From the NCBI RefSeq assembly GCF_005233875.1, contig NZ_SZPZ01000004.1:372001-436000 (forward strand): a stretch of 64,000 nucleotides of DNA, given 5' to 3'. Positions within the stretch are counted from its first letter, which is position 1. Every line of letters starts with the position of its first letter. This document shows, piece after piece, positions 14,840 through 59,343 of the stretch. The translations under genes and the position numbers were made by a program. The DNA is from Kribbella jiaozuonensis. GTDB lineage: Bacteria > Actinomycetota > Actinomycetes > Propionibacteriales > Kribbellaceae. Under the pieces are notes generated by a model. That model made no database searches, had not been told where the DNA came from, and saw only the letters and a list, made by a program, of their open reading frames with translations.

Positions 14840-15661
14840 TCAGCTGCCGATGGCGTTCTTCAGTTGGGTGGCGAAGAAGCGCTCGACGGTCGGGAGGATC
14901 CTGCGGCCGGAGTGAGCGACGCCGTCGACGAGGTCGAAGGTGATGTCGAGGCCGTGGGAGCGGTAGTTCTGCTCCAAGGTGCGGAGCCGCTCGATCCGGG
15001 TGGTGCCGGTGAGTTCGGCGCCGTCCATCCAGTTCGACTCGCCGCGGTTCATGATCTCCCAGGTCTCGATGTCCTCGGAGCCGACGACGAGCTGGATCGG
15101 GACCCGGCGGAGCGCGTCGAAGTCGATCGACTGACCGAACCGCTCCTCGAAACCCTTCGTACCGAGCCACCACGGCAGGCTGTCGTCCAGTTGGGTGATC
15201 CGGCCGGGTGCGCCGATCGATGCAGCGGCCAGACGGTCCGGATGCAGGTAGAGGAACCGGTGGGCGAACTGCCCGCCGCCGGAGAAGCCGTGCAGGTAGA
15301 ACCGCTCGGCCGCGACCGGGAACCGCTCCGCCACCTCGTCCACGATCGCCAGCAGCATCCGGTCGAAGCGGATCCCCTGGTACTCGATGAACTTGAAGTT
15401 GTGCAGGTCGGCCGGATCGACCAGCCCGGCCGGGAAGATCGGCGTCAGTACGACGACGCCGTACTCCTCGGCGAAGTCCGCCGACTGGTCGCGGTAGTTG
15501 GTCGCGGACCGCGCCGTACCGTGCTGGATCACGACCAGCGGCACGCGCTCGTCGCCGGTCAGCCGGCGTGGAACGTAGAGGCAGTAGTGCAGCCGCGGAT
15601 CGATCCGGGACGCGAAGATCGGGGTCTTGCCGCGTTGGTAGACGGTCGCGGTGTCAGTCAT
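14840..15661 (-). CDS. Alpha/beta hydrolase (esterase/feruloyl-esterase-like), block A
   Basis: This hydrolase has 273 residues. It has an oxyanion region (VVIQHGTARSATN) and the nucleophile Ser127 in GFSGGGQFAHRF, with a late Asp/His pair (VDGVAHSG) completing a Ser-Asp-His triad. No signal peptide is visible, so it acts in the cytoplasm. It closely resembles the hydrolase at 55372-56232, where the family sits beside a C45 hydrolase and a ferric-chelate importer. It is the last gene of the tldD-led operon, 13 bases after the reductase, with GAGGA before the ATG. By context it may cleave an ester in an imported chelate, as Fes/IroE-type enzymes do; that role is inferred. Confidence 0.85.
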   Translation of the reverse strand: MTDTATVYQRGKTPIFASRIDPRLHYCLYVPRRLTGDERVPLVVIQHGTARSATNYRDQSADFAEEYGVVVLTPIFPAGLVDPADLHNFKFIEYQGIRFDRMLLAIVDEVAERFPVAAERFYLHGFSGGGQFAHRFLYLHPDRLAAASIGAPGRITQLDDSLPWWLGTKGFEERFGQSIDFDALRRVPIQLVVGSEDIETWEIMNRGESNWMDGAELTGTTRIERLRTLEQNYRSHGLDITFDLVDGVAHSGRRILPTVERFFATQLKNAIGS

Positions 15662-15674
15662 GGGAGTCCTCGAT

Positions 15675-16499
15675 TCACCGACCTGTCCGGTCGGCCTGCT
15701 CGCTGATCTGGTTGGTTCGGTCGCGGCCGGCTTCGGTCGCGGCCATGACGGCGCCGCGGACACCGGCCTTCTCGAGTTCGCGGATGGCGGTGATGGTGGT
15801 GCCGCCCGGACTGCTCACGGCCGCGCGTAGGTGCACCGGGTCGTCGCCCGAGTCGCGGAGCATGGCCGCGGCACCGACTGCCGTCTGGATCACCATCTCC
15901 TCGGACAACGCGCGGGGCAGTCCGAGGAGTACGCCGGCGTCGATCAGCGCCTCGGCGAAGTAGAAGAAGAACGCCGGGCCGCTGCCGGAGAAGGCTGTGA
16001 TTGCGTTCAGCTGCGTTTCGGGGACGCGGACGACCTTGCCGACTGCTCGGAGGAGGGATTCGGCGCGGTCCAAGTGTGTGTCCTCGGCGTATGCGCCTGC
16101 GCTGATCGCGGTGATGGCTTGGCCGACCGAGGCTGCCGTATTCGGCATCGCGCGTACGACGGGTGTCTTCGGCAGGTCGCTCTCGACGCGCGCCGTGCTG
16201 ACGCCGCCGATGACCGAGATGACGAGGTGGTCGGGCGTCAGGTGCTCGGCGAGCCGGGGCAGCAGGTCCTCGATGTGGTACGGCTTCACCATGAGGACCA
16301 CGGTGTCTGACGCTCGGACGGCCTCGGCCAGCTCGGGGGTCGAGACGCCGAAGCGCTCGCGCAGGTACGCCGCTCTGTCGGGCAGCTGCTCGACCACAGA
16401 GATCTGGTCCCGATCGACGAGCGGGGTATCGCCGTCGAGCAGCCCGGACAGGAGGGCAGCGCAGATGTTGCCGCCGCCAACGATCGCGAGTCCCTTCAT
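15675..16499 (-). CDS. Pyrroline-5-carboxylate reductase-like enzyme
   Basis: This NAD(P)H-dependent oxidoreductase of the ProC family has 274 residues. A Rossmann start (IVGGGNICAALLSGLL) is followed by the family motifs RAMPNTAASVG, FSGSGPAFFF and VSSPGGTT. ProC enzymes reduce pyrroline-5-carboxylate to proline; paralogs act on other cyclic imines such as piperideine-carboxylate. Its place between a racemase/epimerase and an esterase, in an operon with a kinase/phospholyase fusion, suggests a catabolic or interconverting role and not housekeeping proline synthesis. The start overlaps the racemase stop by ATGA. Confidence 0.88.
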   Translation of the reverse strand: MKGLAIVGGGNICAALLSGLLDGDTPLVDRDQISVVEQLPDRAAYLRERFGVSTPELAEAVRASDTVVLMVKPYHIEDLLPRLAEHLTPDHLVISVIGGVSTARVESDLPKTPVVRAMPNTAASVGQAITAISAGAYAEDTHLDRAESLLRAVGKVVRVPETQLNAITAFSGSGPAFFFYFAEALIDAGVLLGLPRALSEEMVIQTAVGAAAMLRDSGDDPVHLRAAVSSPGGTTITAIRELEKAGVRGAVMAATEAGRDRTNQISEQADRTGR

Positions 16500-17506
16500 C
16501 GCAGCACGAACCCGGTGCCGAGCGGATCGCTGGGGTCCAGCGTGAAGGTGGCACGGCCGGTCTCGTAGGCCATACCGGCCACCTCGGTGATCACCGCGTC
16601 ATGCCCGTCCGCCTGGACCTGTTCGAGCACCCGGCCCAGGAACGTCGTACCGACGATCGATTCGTGCCGCAGCGTTCGCCCGATCGGCAGCCGGCCGTCC
16701 GCGGCCAGCAGGGCGATCCGCGCGGACGTACCCGATCCGCAGGGCGAGCGATCGAGCTCGCCGTCCGCGAAGATCGTGACGTTGCGCTGGTGCGGACCGT
16801 CCGCATCGTCGCCGAGATCGTCGTACAAGATCGTGCCGTAGATGCCGTCGAGGCGGCTGTCGCTGGGATGGCGGGCCCACTCGGTGTCGTTCAAGGCCCA
16901 CTTGATCTCGCGCCCGATGCTGATCAGGTCGGCGGTGTGCTCGGGTGCCACGGCAAGGCCGAGCGATCGCGCCGGGACGAAGGCGTACAGGGCGCCTCCG
17001 TAGCTGATGTCGACGTGCACCTCACCCCGGCTGGTCTTCACCTCGACGTCGCGCGCCACGACGTACGACGGGATGTTCTGGAACGCCACCTGCTGCACCT
17101 CGCCGCCCGCACACGTGACCCGTGCGACGACCCGGCCGGAAGGTACGTCGATGACGACGTCCGTGTCGCCGTCCGCCGCGGCCTCCACCTGCCCGGTACG
17201 CACCGCCCAGGCGCCGAGCGCGATCGTGCCGTGTCCGCAAGCCGTGGAGTAGCCGTCCTTGTGCCAGAACAGAACCCCGAGGTCCGCCCCGTCGTCATCG
17301 GCCGGCACCAGGAATCCGCCGTACATGTCGGCGTGGCCACGCGGCTCGTTGACCAGCAGTTGCCGTACGGCGTCGACCTCGGCCGACTGCTGCGCGTACG
17401 ACCGCCGATCCAGCACGCTCACGCCAGGAATCTCAGGCACTCCCGCCGTCACGATCCGGAACGGCTCGCCCGCGGTGTGATAGTCGGTCACGCTGATCAG
17501 GTCCAT
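16496..17506 (-). CDS. Proline racemase / 4-hydroxyproline epimerase family protein
   Basis: This cofactor-independent racemase/epimerase has 336 residues. Both catalytic cysteines are present: Cys90 in TACGHG and Cys256 in DRSPCGSGT. Two Cys residues mark epimerases/racemases, while the related trans-3-hydroxyproline dehydratases have lost the second Cys. The exact substrate (proline, hydroxyproline or another alpha-amino acid) cannot be told. Its first 10 bases overlap the end of the kinase/phospholyase fusion. In context it would interconvert the D and L forms of an amino acid released from the imported compound. Confidence 0.9.
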   Translation of the reverse strand: MDLISVTDYHTAGEPFRIVTAGVPEIPGVSVLDRRSYAQQSAEVDAVRQLLVNEPRGHADMYGGFLVPADDDGADLGVLFWHKDGYSTACGHGTIALGAWAVRTGQVEAAADGDTDVVIDVPSGRVVARVTCAGGEVQQVAFQNIPSYVVARDVEVKTSRGEVHVDISYGGALYAFVPARSLGLAVAPEHTADLISIGREIKWALNDTEWARHPSDSRLDGIYGTILYDDLGDDADGPHQRNVTIFADGELDRSPCGSGTSARIALLAADGRLPIGRTLRHESIVGTTFLGRVLEQVQADGHDAVITEVAGMAYETGRATFTLDPSDPLGTGFVLR

Positions 17507-19752
17507 CGGTCTCTCGCTTTCTGGAACGCCGCAATGAAGTACTCGACCTCGGTAGCAGACCAGATCAGCGGCGGCCGGATCTTCAGCACTCCCCCACCCG
17601 GTCCGGTCGTGCCGACGAGTACGCCGTACTCCCGCAACCGCTCGGCGAAGTCCGGAGCATCCGGCAACTCCACCCCCACGATCAGTCCCTGCCCACGCGC
17701 CGGAGTACCCAGCTCGGCCAGCCCGGCGCGCAGTAAGTCGCCGATCTCACCCGACCGCGCAACCAAGCCCCGCTCCTCGATCACATCGAGCACCGTGAGC
17801 GCCGCGACGCACGACACCGGATTGCCGGCGAACGTGCTGAAGAACTCGTCGACCGCCGCGAAGCGCTCCGCGATCTCCCGGCGCGTGATCAGCGCCGCGA
17901 CCGGATGCCCGTTACCCATCGGCTTGCCCAGCGTGACGAAGTCCGGCGTCAGCCCGAAGTCGAGGAACCGCCACAGATTCCGGCCACCACGCCCGAACCC
18001 GGCCTGCACCTCGTCCGCCAGGAACAACCCGCCGGCTTCTCGTACTTCGTCCTGCAACCCGCGCATGAAGTCGTCGCCGGGCGTCAGGATCCCCGCACTG
18101 CTGAACACACTGTCGACCGCGAGCAACGCGACCTCATGCCCGGCCAGGCGCAGCTCGTCGTACCCGGCGCGCACCCGCTCGCGCGCATCTGCGCCGGTTG
18201 GCTGCTCACCGTCCGCGGACAGCCGCGGTGCCTCGAAGATCCCCACGTGCGTAGGTCGCGCAGACGATGGGTAGGTGTTCGTCGACCAGGCAGCCGTGGC
18301 CTCGCTGACCCCGTGGTACGCGAGGTCTGCGACGAGCACTCCCGACCGGCCGGTCGCGATGCGAGCCATCCGCCAGGCGAGGTCGTTCGCCTCACTGCCC
18401 GAGTTGACGAACACGCAGGTGTCCAGTCCGTCCGGCATCGTCGTGACGAGTCGCTCGGCGAGCTCGACAGCATGTGGATGCAGGTAGCGCGAGTTCAGAT
18501 TGAGTATCGCGGCCTGTCGTGAGATCGCTTGTACGACGGCCGGATGCGCGTGGCCGACGACCGGAACGTTGTTGTAGGCATCGAGATACCGCCGCCCGTC
18601 GGCCGTGGACACCCAGGCCCCGGCCGCCCGCACGACCTGCAGAGGCTCCCGGTAGAACAGCGGCGAGAGATCACCACCGAGGGCTGCGCGCCGTCGCGGC
18701 AGCAGCGTGGGGTCGGCCACGGTCGTGACGCGCGACGTACCGCAGAGATGATGGAAACGGTCGGCGAGGTCGGTCAGCGCCGCCCACTCGTCCAGGATCC
18801 GCCAGCTACCGGTGACGAGGCTGGTCAGGTACTCCTCGTTGTCCGGGTACAGCGGCGCCCGCCAGGCCGAGATCAGGATGCTCGCGGCCGAGCGCGCCAG
18901 CACCAACTCGCCGATCAGCTCGACCTCCGCGGGGTCGAGCGGCAGGACGCGCTGGTACGCGTCCAGGAACTGCCGGGCGTCACCCCAGAGATCGTCGGAC
19001 TCGCGCAGCAACGACGTCAGGCTGATCGCGAGGTCGCAGACCCTGGCGGTGTGGTGCATGTCCCCGAAGTCGATCACGCCGGTGATCCGTCCGTCCCCGA
19101 TCAGGACGTTGCTCAGCGTCAGGTCCCCGTGCAACACCGATGCCGGCAACCCACGGGTCGCGTCCTCGAGCCCGGCGAACCGTTCGAGCAGGTCACGCAA
19201 CTGCGTCCGACGGCTTTCGTCCGGCACACTCTCGACGTATCCGCCCAGATCGACGACCAGCCGGGGATCCCAGTCGAGCTTGCGGTACGCCGCCGGGTGG
19301 CCGAACCCCTGGAGCGCCCGGGCGAACTCCGCACAGACCGTCCCGAACTCAGCCGCGAACCACGACGGAAGTGCGGTCAGATCCGCGTCCGCACCGGGCA
19401 GGACCGTGATGACGCGAACCTGATGGACGCGCCCATCAGCGGCTTCGAGGGTGGCGATCGGTTCGCCGGCGGTCGTGGGCAGGAGCCGGGGTATCGGGAG
19501 GTCCGGAGCGACTGCCTCCACGTGCTGCATCGCGGCGCACTCCATCGCGATCTGGCCGGCGTCGTCGCCCGAGTTGGAGACCTTCACCACCAGGTCCGTA
19601 CCGGCCAGGAAGTTCCGGTCGCGTTCACTCCGCAACTCGGTCAGGCGCGCGGTGACGCCGTACGTCTCGAGTAGCGACTGTGAAACCGTCGGGGTGTCGA
19701 CCGCCGGCGGATCGGCGACCATGCTCGGGGTCCGTTCCGGCGTCACGTCCAC
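17497..19752 (-). CDS. APH-like kinase fused to class III PLP phospholyase/aminotransferase, short form
   Basis: This two-domain enzyme has 751 residues. The N-terminal half (about 20-340) is an aminoglycoside-phosphotransferase-like kinase with catalytic HGDLTLSN (Asp210) and metal-binding IDFGD (Asp228). The C-terminal half (about 355-751) is a fold-I PLP enzyme with Lys610 in GKPMGNGHP. GNGHP and the later VLKIRPP motif are typical of phosphoethanolamine/phosphohydroxylysine phospholyases. The expected chemistry is phosphorylation of a 1-amino-2-hydroxy compound, then loss of ammonia and phosphate to give an aldehyde. It lacks the extra central domain of the two paralogs. The GTG at 19752 is chosen for its AAGGAG ribosome site; a long hairpin separates it from tldE. 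Confidence 0.88.
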   Translation of the reverse strand: MDVTPERTPSMVADPPAVDTPTVSQSLLETYGVTARLTELRSERDRNFLAGTDLVVKVSNSGDDAGQIAMECAAMQHVEAVAPDLPIPRLLPTTAGEPIATLEAADGRVHQVRVITVLPGADADLTALPSWFAAEFGTVCAEFARALQGFGHPAAYRKLDWDPRLVVDLGGYVESVPDESRRTQLRDLLERFAGLEDATRGLPASVLHGDLTLSNVLIGDGRITGVIDFGDMHHTARVCDLAISLTSLLRESDDLWGDARQFLDAYQRVLPLDPAEVELIGELVLARSAASILISAWRAPLYPDNEEYLTSLVTGSWRILDEWAALTDLADRFHHLCGTSRVTTVADPTLLPRRRAALGGDLSPLFYREPLQVVRAAGAWVSTADGRRYLDAYNNVPVVGHAHPAVVQAISRQAAILNLNSRYLHPHAVELAERLVTTMPDGLDTCVFVNSGSEANDLAWRMARIATGRSGVLVADLAYHGVSEATAAWSTNTYPSSARPTHVGIFEAPRLSADGEQPTGADARERVRAGYDELRLAGHEVALLAVDSVFSSAGILTPGDDFMRGLQDEVREAGGLFLADEVQAGFGRGGRNLWRFLDFGLTPDFVTLGKPMGNGHPVAALITRREIAERFAAVDEFFSTFAGNPVSCVAALTVLDVIEERGLVARSGEIGDLLRAGLAELGTPARGQGLIVGVELPDAPDFAERLREYGVLVGTTGPGGGVLKIRPPLIWSATEVEYFIAAFQKARDRWT

Positions 19753-19780
19753 GGCAACTCCTTCGTCCGCGCAGGTGGAA

Positions 19781-19823
19781 CAGCAGCGCCCCGCGGCTTG
19801 AGCACGTACGCGGGGCACTGCTG
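19781..19823 (-). terminator. Long hairpin between tldE and the kinase/phospholyase gene
   Basis: The arms 19781-19795 (CAGCAGCGCCCCGCG) and 19809-19823 pair at 14 of 15 positions around a 13-base loop. It starts right after the tldE stop codon and ends before the ribosome site of the next gene. No T-tract follows on the minus strand, so it may be an attenuator or an RNA-processing/stability element and not a full terminator. Confidence 0.5.
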
Positions 19824-19825
19824 GA

Positions 19826-21208
19826 TCAGGGGAGGACGAGCGGCCCGGCCTCGACCAACAGAGACGGCACGACAACGCTCTCCATGAACGTCTGGTCGCA
19901 GCGCTCGCGGGTCGATCCGATGCCGATGATCGCGTTCATCACGTCGTCCATCCGGAACGTGAACCGCAGCTGCGGATGCCAGCCGACCAGCTCGCCGTCC
20001 TCGGCCCAGTACGTCGCGTCTCGCGTCGTACCGGTGACGAGCGTCTCCTTCGGATGCAGCACCCGCAGGTAGTCGAGCCGGTTCACCACCAGGCCGCTGC
20101 CGGTCTCGGCCAGCAGTTCGTCCTCACTCGACGTACCCGCGTCGAGCAGCAGATGCGACGGGACGGGATCTCCCCCGAACCGCCATCCGTCCGGTACGGC
20201 GTGACCGGTCGGCACTCCGCCCGTGACGCCGGCCCGGCGACGGTCCGACACCAGCCCGACGAGCACGCCCTTCTCGAGCAGCGGTGTCCGCCGCCGAACG
20301 TTGCCTTCAGCATCGAATCCGCTGGGCAGCCCGTCCGGGTCGCAGCCGTCGTCGACGAGGGTCACCAGGTCACTGGCGACCTTCTCGCCGAGCCGGCCGG
20401 AGACGACCGACCGCCCGGTCGCATACGCGTTCGCGCCGAGGACCGCGTAGCCGTAGGTGGCGATCAGCGCGTTGGCGGCTTGTGGCTTGAGCAGCACCCG
20501 GCAGGTGCCGTGCCGGGCGTCGATCGTCGGCAGCGGCCGAAGGGCGGCGCGCAGCCGGTCGGGGATCTCCTCGATCGGGAGCTGGTCGGCGTCGCGGTGC
20601 ATCAGCCTGACGCTCACGGACCGGCCGTCCTGTTTGGCGATCGCCTGGATCGATGCCTTGGTCAACGTCTCGGCGCGGAACAGGCCGTTGGCATCGGCAA
20701 CGACCCGATCGAGGACGTCGTACCGGATGGCGCCGCCGAGCGTGGCCGACGAGTCCAGGCCGTCGCGCACGGTCGTGAACCAGCGGTGCCGGACGGCCGG
20801 ATCCGATTCGAGCACCGACGCAGCCGCCGGGATGACGGGCGTCGCCACCGAGTGATCACCGCCGTCGTGTACGGCGTCTGGGGTTGCCTCGGACGGGATG
20901 GGTGGGAGGTCGGAGATGGCTGCGTTCAGGCGGTCCGCGAGGGAGCGGACCGCGTCGGGGTCCAGCGTCTCCAGCGATCCGGCGACCGATCGGCCGTTCC
21001 GGTCGACGCGGACGCGGACCCGGAGCCGGCGTTCGCTGTGCTGAGCGGTGATCGCGGACTCGGCGTACCGCAGGAGATCTGCATGCTCGCCGAGGATGTC
21101 GAGCCGCGCGCCGTCGCCGAGAATCTCCAGCGCCCGACGGACGTCCGCTTCTTTTACCCCCGCCGAGCGAAGCGAGGCGGGGTCTGTCTCCTTTGTCCTG
21201 TTCTTCAT
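19826..21208 (-). CDS. tldE: TldE/PmbA-like subunit of a TldD-TldE protease
   Basis: This protein has 460 residues and is the non-catalytic partner of TldD. The pair forms a heteromeric metalloprotease that degrades unfolded or modified small peptides and matures some peptide natural products (microcin B17). The PmbA/TldE fold is recognised from the C-terminal region (GSGLVVNRLDYLRVLHPKET, VTGTTRDATYW, IGIGSTRER); no HExxxH motif is present, as expected. It overlaps tldD by ATGA. The first 18 codons include a GC-rich palindrome and look unlike the rest of the family. A peptidase pair inside a chelate-uptake region suggests that the imported compound has peptide bonds. Confidence 0.88.
   Translation of the reverse strand: MKNRTKETDPASLRSAGVKEADVRRALEILGDGARLDILGEHADLLRYAESAITAQHSERRLRVRVRVDRNGRSVAGSLETLDPDAVRSLADRLNAAISDLPPIPSEATPDAVHDGGDHSVATPVIPAAASVLESDPAVRHRWFTTVRDGLDSSATLGGAIRYDVLDRVVADANGLFRAETLTKASIQAIAKQDGRSVSVRLMHRDADQLPIEEIPDRLRAALRPLPTIDARHGTCRVLLKPQAANALIATYGYAVLGANAYATGRSVVSGRLGEKVASDLVTLVDDGCDPDGLPSGFDAEGNVRRRTPLLEKGVLVGLVSDRRRAGVTGGVPTGHAVPDGWRFGGDPVPSHLLLDAGTSSEDELLAETGSGLVVNRLDYLRVLHPKETLVTGTTRDATYWAEDGELVGWHPQLRFTFRMDDVMNAIIGIGSTRERCDQTFMESVVVPSLLVEAGPLVLP
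21158..21182. repeat. GC-rich palindrome inside the 5' end of tldE
   Basis: CCCCGCC (21158-21164) and GGCGGGG (21176-21182) flank an 11-base loop with a GAGCGAAGCGA core. It encodes part of the odd N-terminal extension of TldE. Small palindromes of this look are often dispersed in actinobacterial genomes, so it may be an inserted mobile palindrome; only one copy is in the window. Confidence 0.35.
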
Positions 21209-22662
21209 CGTCCCACCTGCACATTCTGGAAACGGCCCGGCACGGTGCCGTGGCCCACGTGGGCGACCTGCAGCGGCTCACCCTTGTTGCACGACGGGAC
21301 GCCGTGCACCCTCCACTCGTCCGGTCCGCCGAGGGCGTCGAGACTCCCCCAGAAGGTCGGGGTATCGCTCTGGTACGTACAGTTCTTCAGCATCCGCCCG
21401 ACCTTGCCGTCGCGGATCTCCCAGCCGATCTCCGTCTGGAAGCGGAAGTTCATCCGCTGGTCGTCGATCGAGAACCCGCGGTTGGTGTCGACCAAGATGC
21501 CGCGCTTGGTACCGGCGATCATCTCGTCGAGCGACGACTCCCCCGGCTCCAGGCAGATGTTCGTCATCCGCACCAGCGGCAGTCGCTGCCACCCGTCCGC
21601 GCGAGCCTGACCCGTCGACTGGCCGCCAAGAGCGCCGGCGTACTCGCGACTGGACATGTAGCCGGTGAAGATGCCGTCCTTCACCAACTGGGTCCGCTGC
21701 GCCGGCGTCCCCTCGTCGTCGTACTTGAACGAGCCGAGTGCGCCGGGGATTGTCGCGTCCGCGTACGCCGAGACGATCGGCGTACCCCACCGGAAGTTGC
21801 CGCGTCGCTCGGGCGTCGCGTAGGTGCCACCGGCCAGACTCGCCTCGGTCCCGAGCGCGCGGTCCGCCTCCATCGGGTGGCCCGCACACTCGTGCAGCAC
21901 CATCGCGAGTTGGTTGCTGCCAGCAACCAGCGTGGTGATCTCGTCCGGACACTGCGGTGCGGACAGCAGCGCGACCGCCTCGGACGCGACCCGGGCCGCG
22001 TTCTCCGGCAGGCCGAGCGACAAGACATGCTCGAAGCCTGCCGTCGCGAAGTCTCCGCGCTGGCCGCGGATCTGCCGTGGCACTCCCTGCGGGAACGATC
22101 GGCGTTGTACGTCGTTCCCGTCGCCGGCGTTGACCATCAGGCCGCCGCCGCTCTCGGTCAGCGTCTGCTCGATCATCGCGCCCTCGGTGTTCGCGAACAC
22201 CTTCTCGTCGCGGTAGAAGTCCACGGAGGCTTCGATCTGCTGGACCAGCGGCCCGGCCGTCGACGCCTCCTTCACCGTCGCCGACAGCAGGTCGAGCTTG
22301 GTCGACAGCGGAACCGTGAACGGGTCGACGACCATCGGCGACGACCAGGTGTCCCGCGTCGTCACCGGTTCGCCCAGCACGACCCGGCCGCCACCGGCGG
22401 CCCGCGCCTGGCCGACCGCCTGGCCGACAACGGCGTCGAGACCCTGCGGGTCGAGCCGGTGCGTGGCGGCGAACCCCCACTGACCGCCGATCAGGACCCG
22501 CAGTCCGAGTCCGAGCGAGTCGTCGTAGTTCACCTCACCGGGACCGTCGAGCTCCACCAGGACCTGCTCGTGCGTACGCCGGACCACCCGGATGTCGCCG
22601 AACTGAACGTCAGCAGGCAGAAGACCGAGCACCACCTCGGCAAGCTCACGGTAACCAGTCAC
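21205..22662 (-). CDS. tldD: TldD-like metalloprotease, catalytic subunit
   Basis: This protein has 485 residues and is the zinc protease subunit of a TldD/TldE pair. The metal motif HExxxH is at His257-Glu258 to His262 (VLHECAGHPM), and a late Cys in LKNCTYQSDTP fits the third zinc ligand. A GTG start at 22662 is preferred over the upstream 22716 because GGAGGT lies 8 bases before it and the upstream stretch is operator DNA. It heads the operon tldD-tldE-kinase/phospholyase-epimerase-reductase-esterase. Two inverted-repeat operators sit directly upstream (22704-22751), so the operon has its own promoter, probably RpiR-controlled. Confidence 0.9.
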   Translation of the reverse strand: MTGYRELAEVVLGLLPADVQFGDIRVVRRTHEQVLVELDGPGEVNYDDSLGLGLRVLIGGQWGFAATHRLDPQGLDAVVGQAVGQARAAGGGRVVLGEPVTTRDTWSSPMVVDPFTVPLSTKLDLLSATVKEASTAGPLVQQIEASVDFYRDEKVFANTEGAMIEQTLTESGGGLMVNAGDGNDVQRRSFPQGVPRQIRGQRGDFATAGFEHVLSLGLPENAARVASEAVALLSAPQCPDEITTLVAGSNQLAMVLHECAGHPMEADRALGTEASLAGGTYATPERRGNFRWGTPIVSAYADATIPGALGSFKYDDEGTPAQRTQLVKDGIFTGYMSSREYAGALGGQSTGQARADGWQRLPLVRMTNICLEPGESSLDEMIAGTKRGILVDTNRGFSIDDQRMNFRFQTEIGWEIRDGKVGRMLKNCTYQSDTPTFWGSLDALGGPDEWRVHGVPSCNKGEPLQVAHVGHGTVPGRFQNVQVGR

Positions 22663-22703
22663 GAGTCGGACCTCCGATGCACAAGGTTGGGTTGATACCG
22701 ACA

Positions 22704-22751
22704 CTGTAGCAGACACTACAGGATTTCGTCAGTCTGTTGTTTTCACTACAG
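22704..22751. promoter_or_regulatory. Paired CTGTAG-N6-CTACAG operators before tldD
   Basis: CTGTAG-N6-CTACAG occupies 22704-22721 with perfect 6-base arms. A second copy, CTGTTG-N6-CTACAG, occupies 22734-22751. The two are exactly 30 bases apart. A similar pair with the same 30-base offset lies at 28881-28928 beside the RpiR gene, which is therefore the best candidate regulator. Confidence 0.6.
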
Positions 22752-23718
22752 ACGCCAGTGTCGCCGCGGAGATGTTCGCGCCGCACGACACCACCGCGAC
22801 GCGCTTGCCCGCCAATTCGGTCCGTCGTTCCCGCGCGGCCGCGAACGCCAACGCCGCCGACCCCTCGATCAGCTGATGCTCGGTATCGATGACCATCGCG
22901 AGCGCGCTCCCGATCGCGTCCTCCCCGACGACCACCCAGTCGTCGACGAGCTGCCGGCACAGGTCGAACGTGATGCTGCCCGGCTCGACGCTGCCCGCCG
23001 TACCGTCCGAGAGCGTCTCCGCGGCATCGACCTGGACGATCTCGCCGGCCCGCACAGACGCCGACATCGCATCGTCGAGCGCGGGCTGAGCGCCGTACAC
23101 GCGGATGCCCGGCAGGTGTTTCTTCAACACCGATGCGACGCCGCTGATCAGTCCCCCGCCGCCGACGGCGACCACGACCGCGTCGAGTGTCATCCCGTCC
23201 AGCTGCTCGAGGATCTCCACGGCGACCGTGCCCTGCCCGGCAATGACATCGGGGTCGTTGTACGGCGGAACGTAGACCAGGTCGTGCTCGGCGGCGTACG
23301 CCCGCGCCTTGGGTTCGAGTACGCCGGAATCGTTGCCTTCAGCCCGTATTTCGAGACCGACCCGGCGGAGCGCGGCGACCTTGCTCGGCGACGCGTTCTC
23401 CGGCAGGTAGACGATGCCGTGCCCGCCCAGGGTCGCCAGCGCGTTGCCGACCCCGAGGCCGTGATTGCCGGTCGAGGCGGTCACCACGCCCGCGTGCCGC
23501 TGGGCATCGGTGAGCGTGAGGATCTTTGCCATCGAACCGCGTGCTTTGAACGAGCCGGTGCGCTGGAGATGCTCGCACTTCACCAGCACCTCCGCACCCA
23601 GCTCGTCGCTGAACGCACCGAACCGGACGAAGGGTGTCGGCGGCAGATGCGCACGCAGCTTCGGTGCGACAAGCTCGGACCGTTCGGCAACCTCCGCCGG
23701 GCTCAACGTCGCGCTCAT
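22729..23718 (-). CDS. Threonine dehydratase-like PLP enzyme (fold type II)
   Basis: This PLP-dependent ammonia-lyase or racemase of the serine/threonine dehydratase family has 329 residues. The PLP lysine is Lys58 in GSFKARGSM; the phosphate-binding loop is VGGGGLISG; the STGNHG motif is present. There is no C-terminal ACT regulatory domain, so it is the catabolic (TdcB-like) or hydroxyaspartate/serine-racemase-like type. Its ATG overlaps the importer ATPase stop by ATGA, which makes it the last gene of the C45-FecBCDE operon. A related enzyme (EutB) acts in hydroxyectoine breakdown, and diaminopropionate lyases share the fold; the substrate here is open. Confidence 0.87.
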   Translation of the reverse strand: MSATLSPAEVAERSELVAPKLRAHLPPTPFVRFGAFSDELGAEVLVKCEHLQRTGSFKARGSMAKILTLTDAQRHAGVVTASTGNHGLGVGNALATLGGHGIVYLPENASPSKVAALRRVGLEIRAEGNDSGVLEPKARAYAAEHDLVYVPPYNDPDVIAGQGTVAVEILEQLDGMTLDAVVVAVGGGGLISGVASVLKKHLPGIRVYGAQPALDDAMSASVRAGEIVQVDAAETLSDGTAGSVEPGSITFDLCRQLVDDWVVVGEDAIGSALAMVIDTEHQLIEGSAALAFAAARERRTELAGKRVAVVSCGANISAATLASVVKTTD

Positions 23719-24524
23719 CCGGTTGCCACTGACAACTTGGCCCGGAGACCGGCGCGCAACGGGATACACATCGGCTTGCCGCTGACGGGATGCGGCACGA
23801 CCTTCGACTCCACCCCGAACACGTCGCGGATGATCTCGCAGGTGAACACGTCCTCCGGCGTACCTTCGGTGATCAGCGTGCCGGACTTCATCACGAACAC
23901 GTGGTCGGCGTACTCAGCCGCCATGTTGAAGTCGTGCAGCACCATGGCGACGGTCTTGCCCTGCTCCTGGTTGAGCTTGTGGAGCAGGTCGAGGACCTCG
24001 AGCTGGTACGCGACATCCAGGTAGGTGGTCGGCTCGTCCAGCAGGATCAGGTCGGTGCCTTGGGCAAGGCACAGCGCGATCCACACCCGCTGCCGCTGAC
24101 CACCGGAGAGCTGATCGACATGCTGATGACGGAGTTCAGCGGTGGAGGTCACCTCCATGGCCCACTCGACGGCTTCCTTGTCCACCGAGCTCGGGGTCTT
24201 CAGCGACGTACGGTGCGGATGGCGGCCGAACCAGACCAGGTCCTCGACCGAGATCGACTCCGGGGTGACAAGGACCTGCGGCAGGATCGCGAGCAGTCTC
24301 GCGACCTCCTTGGTCGGGGTGTCCTGGATCGACTTGCCGTCCAGGATCACGCTCCCCTTGGCCGGTGGAAGCAGCCGGGCCAGGGCCCGCAATGCCGTGC
24401 TCTTGCCGGAGCCGTTCGGGCCGATCAGCACCGAGACCTTCCCGTCCGGGATGGTCAGGGTCAGATCCTGAGCGACGACGCGCTGGTCGTAGGCGAGCTG
24501 GACGCCTTGTGCCTGCAGACGCAT
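23715..24524 (-). CDS. FecE-type ferric-chelate importer ATPase, block A
   Basis: This ATP-binding subunit of a siderophore/ferric-citrate type ABC importer has 269 residues. Walker A is GPNGSGKST, the signature is LSGGQRQRVWIA, Walker B is LILLDEPTT and the switch His is in VLHDFN. It is more than 90 percent identical by eye to the block B copy at 59344-60159, differing mainly near residues 100-125 and at the C-terminus. It sits after the two permeases and overlaps the dehydratase gene by four bases. The coupling of an importer ATPase to an amino acid-degrading enzyme links uptake with catabolism. Confidence 0.94.
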   Translation of the reverse strand: MRLQAQGVQLAYDQRVVAQDLTLTIPDGKVSVLIGPNGSGKSTALRALARLLPPAKGSVILDGKSIQDTPTKEVARLLAILPQVLVTPESISVEDLVWFGRHPHRTSLKTPSSVDKEAVEWAMEVTSTAELRHQHVDQLSGGQRQRVWIALCLAQGTDLILLDEPTTYLDVAYQLEVLDLLHKLNQEQGKTVAMVLHDFNMAAEYADHVFVMKSGTLITEGTPEDVFTCEIIRDVFGVESKVVPHPVSGKPMCIPLRAGLRAKLSVATG

Positions 24525-24533
24525 GAGGAGGTC

Positions 24534-25562
24534 CTACTTTCCGGTCTTCACGAGCAGGTAGAGGAAGTACGGGCCGCCGACGACCGCGGTGATCAGGCCG
24601 GCCGGGACTTCCAGTGGGGGCGCGATACCGCGGCCGAGCATGTCCGCGAACAGCATCAGCAGCACGCCGAACAGGCCGGCCGCCGGAAGCAGCGCGAGGT
24701 GCCGGCCGCCGAAGACGCGGCGGGCCATGTGCGGGGCGATCAGCCCGACGAATCCGATCGTGCCGGACACCGCGACCGCCGCCGAGGCCAGCGCGACCGC
24801 GAACAGCAGCAGGGTCCGCCGCGTCCGTTCAACCGGTTCCCCCAGTCCAGCGGCGAGGTCGTCGCCGAGGCCGAGCACGTCGAGTTTGCGGGCCCAGACG
24901 ATGATCAGTGGAACGAGTACGGCGACCCAGGGCAGGATCTCCAGGACCGAGCTCATCGTCCGGCCGAACAGGCTGCCGGTCAGCCAGATCAGCGCCGCAC
25001 TCACGTCCAGCGGATTGCGGACGAGCAGGAACCGGATGCCGGCCTCGAACGCCGCCGATACCGCGATGCCGACCAGCGCGATCCGCACCGGAGTAGCACC
25101 TCGCCGGTACGCCAGCAGGTACACCAACGCCGCCGCGATGAGACCGCCGACGAACGCCGCCGGTACTACGGCCACCACGGGGATGCTGGGTATCGCCAGC
25201 AGCAGGAGCATTCCGGCGAAACCCGCGCCCTTGGTGACGCCGACGACGTCCGGAGCCGCGAGCGGGTTGCGGATGACGCCCTGCATCACTCCACCGGACA
25301 CGGCGAGCGCGATGCCGACCAGCCACGCCAGCAACACCCGGGGCAGCTGGAACTGCACCACAATCTGAGCGGCCTGGTCGCTGGTGTCACCAACGATCGC
25401 CTTGAAGACATCGCCCATCGAGACGTCGGTCGCGCCGACGCTCAGGCTGTAGAACGACAGGACGACGGCCAGGACGCCCAGCGAGCCCATCAACACGCCC
25501 GGATGGCGCTGGGCCAGCGTCGTACGTCGGACGCCCTGCGCAATGATCGCTGTGCTGGTCAT
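24534..25562 (-). CDS. FecCD-family permease, second subunit, block A
   Basis: This membrane subunit of 342 residues has about nine to ten helices. The FecCD/BtuC hallmark GGVMQGVIRNPLAAPDVVGV and the ATPase-coupling loop GFVGLIAPHMARR are present. It overlaps the first permease by ATGA, so the two form a heterodimeric channel. The block B counterpart at 58308-59333 has the same length and layout. Confidence 0.94.
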   Translation of the reverse strand: MTSTAIIAQGVRRTTLAQRHPGVLMGSLGVLAVVLSFYSLSVGATDVSMGDVFKAIVGDTSDQAAQIVVQFQLPRVLLAWLVGIALAVSGGVMQGVIRNPLAAPDVVGVTKGAGFAGMLLLLAIPSIPVVAVVPAAFVGGLIAAALVYLLAYRRGATPVRIALVGIAVSAAFEAGIRFLLVRNPLDVSAALIWLTGSLFGRTMSSVLEILPWVAVLVPLIIVWARKLDVLGLGDDLAAGLGEPVERTRRTLLLFAVALASAAVAVSGTIGFVGLIAPHMARRVFGGRHLALLPAAGLFGVLLMLFADMLGRGIAPPLEVPAGLITAVVGGPYFLYLLVKTGK

Positions 25563-26623
25563 GAGGTCACCTTCTGCCTGCGGGCCAGGTACACGAAGAT
25601 CGGTGCACCGATGAGTGCCGTCACCACGCCGGCGGGGACTTCGTACGGCGGTTTGACGTAGCGCGACACGATGTCGGCGTACAGCACGAGGACGGCGCCG
25701 CCCACCGCACACAGCGGTAGCAGGACCGTGTAGCTGGAGCCGACCACCCGCCGCATGATGTGCGGCACGATCAACCCGATGAACGCCACCGGACCGGCCA
25801 CCGACACGGCAGCGCCACACAGGACGATGACCAGCGTCGACCCGAGCAGCCGGGTCCGTTCGATGTTCTGGCCCAGCCCGCGGGCCATGTCGTCGCCCAG
25901 CGCCAGCAGGTTCAGCGGCCGCGCCATCGCGAACGCGCCCAGCAGACCGAGGATCAGCCACGGCAGCAGGTTGCGGACATCGGGCCAGCCCGCGAAGTTC
26001 ACCCCGCCGACCAGCCAGAACAGAACGCTGTCGGCCGAGTTCTCGTTGAAGATGATCAACACCTGCGTCAGCGAGATCAGCAGGCTGCTCGCGGTCACAC
26101 CGGCCAGGGCGAGCCGGATCGGACTGACCCGCCCACGCCCCGAACCGGCCAGCAGCATCACCGACACTCCGGCCGCGGCGGCTCCGCCGAACGACAGCAG
26201 GATCGTCGGTGCGCCGGACAACGACGGCAGGACGGTGATCGCCAGCACGACCACGAAGGCTGCGCCGGCGTTCACCCCCATGATCTCCGGCGCGGCCAAC
26301 GGGTTCGCAGCCACGGCCTGCATCAGCGCACCGGCCACCGCCAGGGCGGCGCCGACGCAGAGCGCCAGCACCACCCGCGGCAACCGGATCGACTGGATGA
26401 TCAGCTGGTCCGGCGTATCCGCCCGGAAGATCGCACCAGGCACCCGCGACAACGGGATGTGCTGACTTCCGATCGACAAGCTCCACAGCACGCCGGCCAA
26501 GACCAGCGCGAGCAGCACCAGCGTCGCCCAGAAGACCCGCTGCTTGCTCGTGACGATCTTCGGACGCTTGTGAGCGGCGTCCTCGACAGGTTGTTTGGGC
26601 ACAGTGCCCACGGACAGCGCCAT
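25559..26623 (-). CDS. FecCD-family permease, first subunit, block A
   Basis: This membrane subunit of 354 residues has a longer cytoplasmic N-terminus (about 30 residues) than its partner. The family motif GALMQAVAANPLAAPEIMG and the coupling segment AFIGLIVPHIMRR are present. It starts one base after the binding-protein stop. Together with 24534-25562 it forms the import channel; the block B copy is 57259-58311. Confidence 0.94.
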   Translation of the reverse strand: MALSVGTVPKQPVEDAAHKRPKIVTSKQRVFWATLVLLALVLAGVLWSLSIGSQHIPLSRVPGAIFRADTPDQLIIQSIRLPRVVLALCVGAALAVAGALMQAVAANPLAAPEIMGVNAGAAFVVVLAITVLPSLSGAPTILLSFGGAAAAGVSVMLLAGSGRGRVSPIRLALAGVTASSLLISLTQVLIIFNENSADSVLFWLVGGVNFAGWPDVRNLLPWLILGLLGAFAMARPLNLLALGDDMARGLGQNIERTRLLGSTLVIVLCGAAVSVAGPVAFIGLIVPHIMRRVVGSSYTVLLPLCAVGGAVLVLYADIVSRYVKPPYEVPAGVVTALIGAPIFVYLARRQKVTS

Positions 26624-26624
26624 G

Positions 26625-27653
26625 TCACTTCCCGTAGAGGAGTTTGACGGCTTCCTTGGCGACCACTTCGGAGGCGATCAGGCCACGCGACCGCGACCAC
26701 TCGTTCGGGTCGACGTCGTACGTCGCGTTGTTCTTCACCGCCGGCAACTGCTTCCACAGCTGGCTCTTCGCCCAGGTGTCGCGCAGGGTCGGTCCGTCGT
26801 TCGGAGCGATGAACATGATGTCCGGCTTGGTGCCGACGAGCGTCTCCAGCGTCAGCGAGACCGACGCGTCGCTGCCACTGTCCGGCAACGCCGACGGAAT
26901 GCCGATCGCGGACAGCACGCCCGGCGTGTAGGCCTTCGGCGGGAACCCGGTGAAGCCCTTCTCGGACGCCCGGACGAACAGCGCCTTGCGGCTCTCGTTC
27001 GCGGTCGCCTCGGCCTTCAGGTCCGACATCGTCTTGGCGTGCTCGGTCAGCCGCTGCTTCATCTGGTCGCACTTGTTCAGCGCGATCGCGGTCGACATCT
27101 CACTGTCCAGCACCTGCTGGTAGTTGCCGTTCAGGCTGGCGTAGGCGATCGTCGGCGCGATCTTCGACAGCTGCGCGTAGATCGCCTTGTGCCGGCCGCT
27201 GTCGGCGATGATCAGGTCCGGCTTCAGCGCGGTGATCACCTGGATGTTCGGCGTCGCCCGCAGGCCGACCGACTTGTAGGCGCTGACCTTCTCCCGCAGC
27301 GCGGGGATGATCCGCTTCGGCTCGTTGTCATCGGCAACACCGATCGGAGACATCCCGACCGCGACCAGGGCGTCGACGAAGGAGTACTCCAGCGCCACCA
27401 CCTTGGTCGGGTTGCCGGTGATCGTCGTGGTGCCGAGATCGTGCTTGATGGTGCGGGTCGGTTTGCCGCACTCGTCCAGGTTCACACCGGGGCCGACGCC
27501 GGGCGCGGCGGCGGCACGGTCAGCATTCGGCGCCGCCCCCGCGGCCGGTGACACTGACGAGGAGGAGTTGCCGCAGGCAGCCAAGGCACCTGCGGCGACG
27601 GTCAGGGCGAGTACGGCGACAGCACGCCGTACCCGGGTGGCGGAGTAAGACAT
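26625..27653 (-). CDS. FecB-type ferric-chelate binding lipoprotein, block A
   Basis: This periplasmic-binding-fold lipoprotein has 342 residues. A signal sequence ends in the lipobox LAAC (Cys near residue 27), followed by a Ser/Ala-rich linker and the two-lobed binding domain. The regions VVALEYSFVDALVAVGMSPIG, LKPDLIIADSGRHKAIY and WSRSRGLIASE resemble FecB/YfmC proteins that bind ferric citrate and related carboxylate chelates. That suggests a citrate or hydroxycarboxylate chelate, but the ligand is inferred. AAGGAG precedes the ATG. The paralog at 56238-57257 is roughly three-quarters identical. Confidence 0.92.
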   Translation of the reverse strand: MSYSATRVRRAVAVLALTVAAGALAACGNSSSSVSPAAGAAPNADRAAAAPGVGPGVNLDECGKPTRTIKHDLGTTTITGNPTKVVALEYSFVDALVAVGMSPIGVADDNEPKRIIPALREKVSAYKSVGLRATPNIQVITALKPDLIIADSGRHKAIYAQLSKIAPTIAYASLNGNYQQVLDSEMSTAIALNKCDQMKQRLTEHAKTMSDLKAEATANESRKALFVRASEKGFTGFPPKAYTPGVLSAIGIPSALPDSGSDASVSLTLETLVGTKPDIMFIAPNDGPTLRDTWAKSQLWKQLPAVKNNATYDVDPNEWSRSRGLIASEVVAKEAVKLLYGK

Positions 27654-27690
27654 GGCACTTGCTCCTTGAGACTAAGGATGCGTGGCGGGG

Positions 27691-28860
27691 TCATCGCTGC
27701 CCGGCGAGGGCGTGGGCCGGGCCGGGTACGTCGGGACGGTCGTCGGGACCGGGACCGTCGTACAGGTTCCAGGGCGCCTGCTGGTAGCTGTTCGCACAGG
27801 GCAGGCCCGGGGTGAGCCGGTAGCTACCGGTGGTCAGGTCGACCAGGCTGGAGGCGATGGTGGCGTAGCGGTCGAGCTCGTGCCGGCGCGGGTCGACGTG
27901 CTGGCAGACGGCATCGGGGTGTCCGAAGTGGTCGCTCATCGTGGTGCGCACGATGGTGCTGACCGCTTCGTCGGTGCTGCCGTCGCGGCGGAGCCGGTGC
28001 AGGCCCGTCTCGACGCGCGGCACACGGTAGAGCGAGTCGACCGAGAACGGGCGGTAGGTGTTCTCGATCTGCGGCGGGACGAACGCCTGGAAGTGGTTGC
28101 CGTGAACCAGCAACCCGTCCGTCGGGTACATCCAGCCGTGCCGGCCGGGGGTGGTCTCGACGTCGATGGCGAAACCGTCCCGGTGGGTGAGCAACAGATT
28201 GCTGGACAGGCTCTGGCGGGCGTCGAAGACCGCCTTGAGCGCGTCGTGGAAGTCCCAGCTCTCCAGGACCTTGCGGCGGACGAGAGCACCCGGGACACCG
28301 GGCCCGCCGCCGAAGCCGGCGCCGAGTCCGTTCGCGTTCAGGGCGATCCCGGCCGAGTTGGCGCCGTGCCGGCCGACCTGGCCGGCCTCGACGTGGCAGA
28401 TGATCGTGGGCTTGCCGGGCTGCGCGATCCGCAGGACCACGAGGGTTTCGGCGACACCGTCCCACAGGTCCCAGTTCTGTCCGGCCCAGGTGTGGCCGAG
28501 CGCGTTGGCCTGCGGCAGTACGGCGAACGACGTACAGCCCTCGTCGTCGTCCTTGGACTCGAACGGGTTGCCGCGGGTCAGTTCGCCGCGGCTGTTCAGC
28601 GCGACGATCTCCGCGAAGCTCCGGCCCGACCCGTCGGCGATCCCGCGCAGTTCGGGCACGATGTCCGGGAGGTAGCCCGCCATGATCGGCACCCAGACGG
28701 CGGCGCGGTCGAGTACGTCGGACCACGCGAGTCCGGTCTTGTGGGCGATCGACTCGGCATAGAAAGCCACCGAGGCAGCGATCTGCTCACGCGCCGCTTC
28801 GCCGTACTGACGGCCACGTTCCCGCGGATCCGCCGCCGAAAGGTCGATAGTGTCGATCAC
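27691..28860 (-). CDS. C45-family Ntn-hydrolase (acyltransferase/amidase-like), block A
   Basis: This protein of 389 residues belongs to the family of penicillin isopenicillin-N acyltransferase. Such precursors cleave themselves before a Cys that becomes the N-terminal nucleophile; here that is Cys109 in EGCTSFAV. Other conserved parts are AGQNWD, GRHGANSAGIALNANGLG and LLVHGNHFQ. No signal peptide is visible. GTG 28860 is preferred because GGGAG lies about 8 bases before it; an upstream GTG at 28893 falls in the operator. It heads the importer operon and is divergent from the RpiR regulator. In context it would hydrolyse an amide bond of the imported compound. Confidence 0.88.
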   Translation of the reverse strand: MIDTIDLSAADPRERGRQYGEAAREQIAASVAFYAESIAHKTGLAWSDVLDRAAVWVPIMAGYLPDIVPELRGIADGSGRSFAEIVALNSRGELTRGNPFESKDDDEGCTSFAVLPQANALGHTWAGQNWDLWDGVAETLVVLRIAQPGKPTIICHVEAGQVGRHGANSAGIALNANGLGAGFGGGPGVPGALVRRKVLESWDFHDALKAVFDARQSLSSNLLLTHRDGFAIDVETTPGRHGWMYPTDGLLVHGNHFQAFVPPQIENTYRPFSVDSLYRVPRVETGLHRLRRDGSTDEAVSTIVRTTMSDHFGHPDAVCQHVDPRRHELDRYATIASSLVDLTTGSYRLTPGLPCANSYQQAPWNLYDGPGPDDRPDVPGPAHALAGQR

Positions 28861-28880
28861 GGAGAGCTCCCTGCACTGGG

Positions 28881-28928
28881 CCGTTGTGTCCACTACGAAT
28901 ATTCACCTGACGGTAGTGATTGCTACAA
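28881..28928. promoter_or_regulatory. Paired inverted-repeat operators between the C45 gene and rpiR
   Basis: CGGTAG-N6-CTACAA (28911-28928) and the weaker CCGTTG-N6-CTACGA (28881-28898) follow the pattern seen before tldD and keep the same 30-base offset. They lie in the divergent region between the block A importer operon and the RpiR gene, so one regulator could control import, breakdown and itself. Confidence 0.55.
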
Positions 28929-28991
28929 TCGCTGTCAACGGATTCGCTGATGAAAAGATCTGCCGGGAGCGAATCGGACGGGAGGGATGTC

Positions 28992-29933
28992 ATGACCACA
29001 GCGGAGGCCAAGCCACCGACCCTGCAGGAGCGCGTCGCGACGCGACTGGGGGATCTGACCGCGACCGAACGCAGGGTCGCCGAGTACCTGTCCGCGCATC
29101 CGCAGGAGGCCGCGTTCTCCTCCGCCGAGGAGCTCGGCCGGGCAACGGGTACCAGCGACGCCAGCATCGTCCGCACCGCCAAAGCCCTCGGGTACGACGG
29201 TCTGCCCGGGCTGAAGCGTTCGCTACAGGGCCACCTGCAGACGCTGCTCTCGCCGGCCAACCGGCTGAGCGCGAGTCTCGAGACCCTCGGCGACGGCCCG
29301 GAGACCGTCCTGCGCGCAACCCTCCGCGATCACATCGAGCACCTGATGATGGCCGAGCAGACCATCGACACGGCGGCGTTCCGGCGCGCCGTGGAGCTCG
29401 TCGACGCCGCCCACGAGACCGTCGTCTGCGGGTTCGCGGGCCTGGACGGCGTGTCGGAGTACATCGCCACCCATCTGACCCGGATCGGGCACCGGGCGCG
29501 TACGGCGACCGAGACCGGCTACCGGCTGGCCGACCGGATCCTGCTGCTCGGGCCGGATGACGTCGTGATCGTGATGGCGCACAACCGGGTGAACCGCGAG
29601 ACGCGCACGATCATCGATCACTGCGCGGGGGCCGGCGTACCGGTGATCCTGCTGACCGACACGCTCGGCGAGGCACTACGCGACGAGGTCGAGGTCGTCC
29701 TGTCCGCGCGGATGAGCCGGCCGGGAGCGTTCACCAGCCAGGCCGTGGTGCTGATCCTGCTCGAGGCGCTGACGATCGCCGTGGCCGCACGCGACCGTGG
29801 CCGGGCGCTCGAGAACACCGAGCGGATGAACCAGCTCCGCGAGGAACTCAACGGCTACCCGCTGGCGGACGAGACCGTCCTCGGCCACCAGCGCACCAAG
29901 GGCGGCGCAAAGCCGAAGTCCCGCGGCCGCTGA
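28992..29933 (+). CDS. RpiR/MurR-family transcriptional regulator
   Basis: This regulator has 313 residues. The N-terminal helix-turn-helix domain (about 10-85; TATERRVAEYL, SDASIVRTAKALGYDG) is followed by a SIS domain (about 115-255). SIS domains usually sense phosphosugars; the canonical SGxT phosphate loop is not clear here (MAHNRVNRET), so the ligand may differ. GGGAGGG lies about 8 bases before the ATG. It is divergent from the block A importer operon and has the paired operators in front of it. The local production of phospho-amino-alcohols by the kinase fusions offers a possible ligand, which is speculative. Confidence 0.9.
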   Translation: MTTAEAKPPTLQERVATRLGDLTATERRVAEYLSAHPQEAAFSSAEELGRATGTSDASIVRTAKALGYDGLPGLKRSLQGHLQTLLSPANRLSASLETLGDGPETVLRATLRDHIEHLMMAEQTIDTAAFRRAVELVDAAHETVVCGFAGLDGVSEYIATHLTRIGHRARTATETGYRLADRILLLGPDDVVIVMAHNRVNRETRTIIDHCAGAGVPVILLTDTLGEALRDEVEVVLSARMSRPGAFTSQAVVLILLEALTIAVAARDRGRALENTERMNQLREELNGYPLADETVLGHQRTKGGAKPKSRGR

Positions 29934-42456: not shown

Positions 42457-42473
42457 CATCCATTACATGGATG
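42457..42473. promoter_or_regulatory. Inverted repeat over the start codon of the second RpiR gene
   Basis: CATCCAT (42457-42463) and ATGGATG (42467-42473) are perfect arms around TAC. The repeat spans the candidate -10, the transcription start and the ATG, so it could be an autoregulatory operator or a hairpin that limits translation. Confidence 0.4.
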
Positions 42474-54174: not shown

Positions 54175-54204
54175 GGTCTGGACAGACCGTAATAGTCGTT
54201 ACAG
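54175..54204. promoter_or_regulatory. Inverted repeats between the amidohydrolase and block B
   Basis: GGTCTG-GA-CAGACC (54175-54188) is directly followed by CCGTAA-N6-TTACAG (54187-54204). The second keeps the GTAR-N6-YTAC layout of the operators before tldD and the first rpiR, with A/T in place of G/C at one position. It is a candidate site for an RpiR paralog controlling block B and the amidohydrolase. Confidence 0.45.
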
Positions 54205-56232: not shown

Positions 56233-56237
56233 TTGCC

Positions 56238-57257: not shown

Positions 57258-57258
57258 C

Positions 57259-59333: not shown

Positions 59334-59343
59334 GAGACCCATC

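Follow-up and report, generated by a model that had tools for sequence, protein, structure and literature searches.

Paired palindromes at a fixed 30-bp offset as probable operators of RpiR1, a MurR/RpiR-family regulator of Kribbella

The stretch of DNA analyzed here, called the window throughout, comprises 64,000 nucleotides of Kribbella jiaozuonensis (contig NZ_SZPZ01000004.1, positions 372,001 to 436,000) and carries two pairs of palindromes, one before tldD and the other before rpiR1, a gene encoding a regulator of the MurR/RpiR family. Comparison of sequences across the genus and beyond makes it very likely that these pairs are the operators of an autoregulating RpiR1, which probably occupies both sites of a pair as a tetramer and most likely represses three transcription units, namely rpiR1 itself, an operon for a C45 hydrolase and an importer, and an operon headed by tldD. 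A sequence-only reading of this DNA had described these palindromes and a fixed 30-base offset within each pair; all four 18-mers were found at their positions (22704, 22734, 28881 and 28911), and the offset is exactly 30 bp for both T1/T2 and R1/R2. The elements are as follows:

22704..22721, operator T1 (tldD side), CTGTAG-N6-CTACAG, CTGTAGCAGACACTACAG, kept in 14/14 RpiR1-holding genomes
22734..22751, operator T2 (tldD side), CTGTTG-N6-CTACAG, CTGTTGTTTTCACTACAG, overlapping the last codons of the PALP gene
28881..28898, operator R1 (rpiR side), CCGTTG-N6-CTACGA, CCGTTGTGTCCACTACGA, kept 5' of 14 rpiR orthologues
28911..28928, operator R2 (rpiR side), CGGTAG-N6-CTACAA, CGGTAGTGATTGCTACAA, kept 5' of 14 rpiR orthologues
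28992..29933, + strand, rpiR1, MurR/RpiR regulator with HTH_6 (PF01418, 1.2e-13) and SIS (PF01380, 3.9e-07) domains

The 56 operator sites gave the consensus YYGTAGYR-WW-YRCTACRR, which refines the half-site to GTAGYR, and R2 obtained the top position weight matrix (PWM) score in the window (24.2). The claim that two dimers would bind the same face of the helix holds in part: the offset is roughly near three turns, but 30 bp amounts to 2.86 turns at 10.5 bp per turn, so that the paired sites miss perfect alignment on one face by about 50 degrees.

The rarity of the pairs was assessed by pattern searches over the genome and the genus, PWM scoring being applied at selected loci. Within the window, GTWG-N6-CWAC matched five times, and four of these matches are the named sites. 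For GTWG-N6-CTAC, 5 occurrences were observed against 0.32 expected per 64 kb per strand in first-order Markov copies of the window, and such simulated DNA contained no 30-offset pair in 19.2 Mb. Likewise, the whole 8.66-Mb genome has only four places with two palindromes of the GTWG-N6-CWAC type separated by a gap of 2-30, two of them being T1/T2 and R1/R2; when both right arms had to be CTAC (gap 1-30), these two pairs were the only ones. A common intergenic repeat, or chance, was rejected in view of this uniqueness, the simulation and the conservation over 14 species described below; short palindromes do arise randomly, yet the probability left to such an origin is practically nil. Thus, the genome-wide scan for the paired motif proposed by the sequence-only reading found the pairs unique, and the pattern was not equally common in randomized DNA.

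Several other palindromes deserve mention at this point. The fifth match in the window, a perfect GAGTAG-N6-CTACTC at 4008-4025, is isolated, apparently lies in coding DNA and has a PWM score below 8. The two remaining genomic pairs (L072 and L075) are made of GTTG-N6-CAAC palindromes with other spacing, possibly operators of another regulator. Among the further single GTWG-N6-CTAC sites of the genome scored with the PWM, only one (L003, 15.3) came close, and it is unpaired with no known target. An operator-like sequence, CTGAAGCGTTCGCTACAG, at 29211-29228 (PWM 14.7) lies inside rpiR1, in coding DNA, and was not counted among the operators.

The sample used for comparison consisted of 38 Kribbella genomes. 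An rpiR1 orthologue is present in 14 of them (71-100% identical, the best match elsewhere reaching at most 35%), and the close relatives of RpiR1 are all from Kribbella species. Strict pairs with a gap of 1-30 numbered 24, of which 21 had an offset of 30 and three had offsets of 17, 19 and 23. The former 21 pairs all precede rpiR1 or tldD and come from 13 of the 14 rpiR1-holding genomes, and the three others are located away from the rpiR1/tldD locus; no strict pair was found in the 24 Kribbella genomes without an rpiR1 orthologue. The 14th rpiR1-holding genome (G006) has both blocks at unchanged spacing with some bases substituted, so both blocks keep the offset of 30 in 14/14 rpiR1 genomes even if certain arms have drifted in sequence. 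As a control, the pattern read backwards gave 15 matches, which were scattered. In ungapped alignments divided into 12-bp bins, the 48-bp block on the rpiR side is 89-98% identical per bin, compared with 43-47% for the upstream DNA, while the corresponding values for the tldD side are 83-90% in the sites, 73% in the middle and 41-62% in the flanks. T2 retains the same 30-bp offset from T1 in the relatives, with GTTG, GTCG or GTCA as its left arm.

The two blocks are 6.2 kb apart here and about 7.5 kb apart in most relatives, with the pairs staying in place. The distance differs because most relatives carry, between the PALP gene and tldD, genes for a membrane protein and a small protein of about 70 residues (e.g., L060:7862-8671 and L064:7485-8491), both absent from this species. 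The missing membrane-protein gene also explains why T2 (22734) sits within the final PALP codons, the PALP stop being at 22729. In some relatives, a GTAA-type palindrome, ACGTAACGATAGTTACGT, is found upstream of the membrane-protein gene (L064:8526, L066:8558 and L060:8704). One relative (G035) has lost rpiR1, tldD, tldE and the importer from the locus, and its C45 gene is accompanied by a single hybrid site and no pair.

Beyond the genus, homologues 38-39% identical to RpiR1 have GTAG-N6-CTAC beside their own gene in two loci from other actinobacterial families (L217 and L218) and in a metagenome-assembled genome of the Acidimicrobiales (L200). The first has a single site, as does a further homologue locus (L043), whereas L218 has a pair with an offset of 28 and L200 a pair with an offset of 31, the second left arm of which contains one mismatch. 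In L200, the divergent gene (L200:9069-9892) encodes a relative of the membrane protein that adjoins tldD in most Kribbella. Offsets of 28-31 in such remote proteins suggest a loose constraint near three turns. In another Kribbella, a perfect CTGTAG-N6-CTACAG (L203:9224) stands between two adjacent RpiR-family genes whose products are 33-36% identical to RpiR1.

The operators coincide with three promoters predicted from the sequence:

28910..28938, - strand, predicted promoter of the C45/importer operon, -35 TTGACA (28938-28933), 17-bp spacer, -10 TACCGT (28915-28910), R2 filling the spacer
28902..28929, + strand, predicted rpiR promoter, TTCACC-16-TACAAT with an extended -10 TG, the -10 being the right arm of R2
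22703..22708, - strand, predicted -10 of the tldD promoter, TACAGT preceded by TGC (extended), overlapping an arm of T1

The TTGACA hexamer is not part of the operator and shows no variation across the 14 genomes, which is good evidence for a C45/importer promoter with R2 within its spacer. The TTCACC-16-TACAAT element was the sole promoter-like match in the 6.6 kb scanned, shuffled sequences averaging 0.5, and its -10 is kept in the relatives, as TACAGT in two of them. On the tldD side, CTGCTAC.GTG on the - strand is kept in nearly all relatives, and no conserved -35 was seen there. Since operator arms fall on -10 hexamers and within a -35/-10 spacer, their placement argues for repression.

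As for the protein, both the N-terminal HTH_6 and the C-terminal SIS domain of RpiR1 are above the Pfam cut-offs, and the palindromes lie, as expected for the MurR/RpiR family, 5' of its own gene and of the target operons (in the sequences of 14 species and the distant homologues). The Pseudomonas family member RccR holds the phosphate of its ligand, 2-keto-3-deoxy-6-phosphogluconate (KDPG), with four serines, S139, S183, S185 and S188 (PMC10810197), which align with L151, A196, N198 and N201 of RpiR1, L151 and N198 being invariant among its orthologues. According to this alignment, RpiR1 lacks the phosphosugar-binding serines that are usual, although not universal, in SIS domains, so a sugar phosphate held in the customary manner is probably not its inducer. 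Because domains define the family, the membership of RpiR1 stands despite the absent serines. That RpiR1 reads the sites is supported by the pair 5' of its own gene, by the co-variation of pairs and gene, by the distant homologues that share the site, and by the similar arms recognized by RccR.

The model that we favor can be outlined as follows. Each GTAGYR-NN-YRCTAC palindrome would bind one RpiR1 dimer, and the 30-bp offset would place two dimers, probably forming one tetramer through their SIS domains, side by side on approximately one face of the DNA. On the rpiR side, the bound protein would mask both divergent promoters, that of rpiR itself (autoregulation) and that of the C45-FecBCDE importer-PALP operon; the tldD-side pair would bring it over the extended -10 of the tldD-tldE-kinase/aminotransferase-racemase-ProC-hydrolase operon. 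Its effect would most likely be repression, lifted by a metabolite of the compound that is imported. The sequences themselves show the sites, their spacing and conservation, their co-occurrence with RpiR1 and their overlap with the predicted promoters, whereas we infer the binding of RpiR1, the bridging by a tetramer, the sign of the regulation and the inducer. SpNanR of Streptococcus pneumoniae binds as a dimer to each 18-bp near-palindrome, exists in a dimer-tetramer equilibrium and has been proposed to bridge, as a tetramer, to a half-site 23 bp downstream (PMC12713135), and RccR crystallizes as a tetramer (PMC10810197), so that by analogy it would be reasonable for a tetramer to span two dimer sites at an offset of 30 bp. 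The grouping of rpiR, the C45/importer operon and the tldD operon into one regulon, already advanced by the sequence-only reading, gains support from the footprints in the alignments, the presence/absence pattern, the promoter overlap and the distant homologues.

That earlier reading had also drawn attention to a variant, CCGTAA-N6-TTACAG, before a second C45/importer set known as block B. The variant is indeed present at 54187; as a site of the same regulon it did not hold up, being unpaired and of a class that goes with the paralogue RpiR2 in the relatives. The features concerned are these:

42467..43375, + strand, rpiR2, paralogue 30% identical to RpiR1, recognition helix TSNATVIRT
54187..54204, block B site, CCGTAA-N6-TTACAG, CCGTAATAGTCGTTACAG, before C45_B, an RpiR2-type operator, outside the RpiR1 regulon on present evidence

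The second set starts at 54257. The 54187 site has nothing with a useful PWM score at +/-30, and scores 15.0 itself with the RpiR1 PWM, above a few of the drifted sites of relatives; its interpretation as a weak RpiR1 site was rejected as the default, given the missing partner and the association of the GTAA class with RpiR2 relatives. GTAA-N6-TTAC was found upstream of RpiR2 or C45_B in 10 of the 15 regions examined (this window included), and no paired form of it (gap 1-30) exists anywhere in the 38 genomes. The C45, substrate-binding protein, FecC, FecD and FecE set, together with an esterase, thus occurs twice in the window (14840-28860 and 54257-60159), with a different gene order, C45_A and C45_B being 48% identical. 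In the recognition helix, all RpiR1 proteins have TSDAS and RpiR2 proteins TSNAT. In a tree, the Asn proteins formed one clade nested among the Asp proteins, and sister to that clade is L208, an Asp protein that is the regulator of locus L218 and has a GTAG pair. From these sequences, the Asp/GTAG combination looks ancestral and Asn/GTAA derived once; as this is a single event, we treat it as a hypothesis. HexR has Glu at the recognition-helix position and reads GTAA, so the Asp/Asn residue alone would not be the whole recognition code. We give slightly less than an even chance to a broader notion, in which the RpiR paralogues represent a split in operator specificity (TSDA[ST]/GTAG to TSNAT/GTAA), with the two importer/C45 copies under insulated regulators and RpiR1 without a classical phosphosugar site.

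The possibility that the paired motif is read by another transcription factor, RpiR1 being a mere neighbor, must be considered in this context, since RpiR2, predicted for a related motif, could cross-bind, as the score of the 54187 site illustrates. Nevertheless, the motif accompanies RpiR1-type genes into other families and another order-level group with unrelated neighbors, RpiR2 loci have GTAA-N6-TTAC instead, and four genomes (G029, G031, G010 and G037) keep the pairs without an RpiR2 orthologue above ordinary family similarity, all of which makes this a very improbable explanation. More weight, although still on the unlikely side, can be given to the notion that RpiR1 binds the two palindromes of a pair independently of one another, their offset of 30 bp being imposed by two promoters or by RNA polymerase geometry and not by cooperation between dimers. 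This would suit the two divergent promoters packed in the rpiR-side block, as well as the single sites (L217, L043) and other offsets (L218, L200) of distant homologues. However, the tldD side, with one known promoter, retains its second site at exactly 30 bp also in genomes where the left arm has drifted, and the very offsets of the remote homologues, 28-31, point to a spacing held at about three turns.

Intermediate between these two in probability, and rather doubtful, is a role for RpiR1 as an activator, or as a dual regulator, of at least one of the three promoters. SpNanR activates (PMC12713135), and among the targets of RccR some are repressed and others derepressed (PMC5489143), whereas the operator arms in question coincide with -10 hexamers and a -35/-10 spacer, a position typical of repression. 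Since RpiR proteins can activate, that overlap is all that speaks for repression, and this is one of several points that weigh against RpiR1 as the repressor reading these pairs. Some relatives hardly differ at the sites and hence are not independent; the co-occurrence of sites and RpiR1 is confounded by that of the whole locus, so that in principle the sites could be read by a different regulator, one that all Kribbella share; and some homologues of the Asp type (L216 and L220) show merely degenerate sites.

The genes placed under RpiR1 by the favored model form two operons, both on the - strand. The importer operon contains:

27691..28860, - strand, C45 autoproteolytic hydrolase/acyltransferase, gene 1 (NCBIfam NF040521, 1.7e-62; start codon inferred)
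26625..27653, - strand, FecB-like substrate-binding lipoprotein (NCBIfam NF008501, 1.7e-85, 286.6 bits, under the cut-off of 320)
25559..26623, - strand, FecC-type permease (open reading frame named by the resemblance of its translation and its place in the operon; kept in relatives)
24534..25570, - strand, FecD-type permease (open reading frame, approximate start; kept in relatives via the block B copy)
23715..24524, - strand, FecE-type ATPase (Pfam ABC_tran, 1.4e-29)
22729..23769, - strand, PALP enzyme, serine/threonine (hydroxyamino acid) dehydratase-like (Pfam PALP, 2.6e-73; NF005292, 368 bits, just below the cut-off of 371)

The second operon contains:

21205..22662, - strand, tldD, gene 1 (Pfam PmbA_TldD; start GTG at 22662 inferred from the ribosome-binding site)
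19826..21208, - strand, tldE/pmbA (Pfam PF19289)
17497..19875, - strand, APH kinase domain fused to a class III aminotransferase/phospho-lyase-like domain (Pfam APH, Aminotran_3)
16496..17506, - strand, proline racemase family enzyme (Pfam, 2.8e-98)
15675..16499, - strand, pyrroline-5-carboxylate reductase-like protein, ProC (NCBIfam TIGR00112, above cut-off)
14840..15763, - strand, alpha/beta hydrolase, polyhydroxybutyrate-depolymerase-like esterase (weak NCBIfam match, under cut-off)

This gene content hints, weakly, at a pathway that takes up and hydrolyzes an amide resembling a peptide or a siderophore and then catabolizes its hydroxyamino acid or amine moieties. In other families, RpiR2/C45 loci adjoin two weakly FecE-like ABC ATPases, possibly of a peptide-type importer, which would be compatible with such a substrate. 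A search of the literature found no clear match for the regulated gene set. Downstream, near rpiR1, genes for an aconitase and an isocitrate/tartrate-type dehydrogenase (34850-38325) form a neighborhood that is kept in relatives and has no RpiR1 operators.

The predicted regulon would be the first, well supported by comparison, for an uncharacterized RpiR clade in Kribbella, and it is a new one of a kind already known; in the library searched, Kribbella and RpiR were not named together in any paper. It would join a FecBCDE-type importer, a C45 hydrolase and the TldD/TldE protease pair in one controlled unit, so that the substrate could be searched for by growth or expression screens. RpiR1 and RpiR2 would also provide a compact natural test of the choice between G and A in RpiR operators, and this apparently insulated pair of paralogues, with its one-residue/one-base difference, is where a specialist could be surprised.

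Among the known systems, MurR of E. coli binds a pair of neighboring inverted repeats between murR and murQP, where regulator and target are divergent, and was taken as a lead only, its sequence and pathway being different. HexR of Pseudomonas resembles RpiR1 in that a dimer binds a pseudo-palindrome 5' of its own gene and of target operons, the apo-form being the repressor (PMC5489143), and differs in its consensus (TTGT-N7-8-ACAA), its ligand (KDPG) and its targets, the glucose genes. SpNanR shares 18-bp near-palindromic sites bound by one dimer each, with the tetramer bridging proposed for it; in contrast, its sites are AT-rich with another core, and it is an activator of sialic acid genes. 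RccR, which binds TGTAGT/ACTACA arms and has two such 15-bp sites 5' of aceE (PMC5489143), offers a likeness in its HTH-SIS architecture, in a half-site that is close to the GTAGTG/CACTAC found here, and in a site 5' of its own gene. However, its arms are 3 or 16 bp apart, while the equivalent linker is 4 bp in all the sites described here, its aceE sites are separated by 68 bp, its regulon is that of central carbon metabolism, and it is a KDPG sensor whose phosphate-contacting serines are not found in RpiR1.

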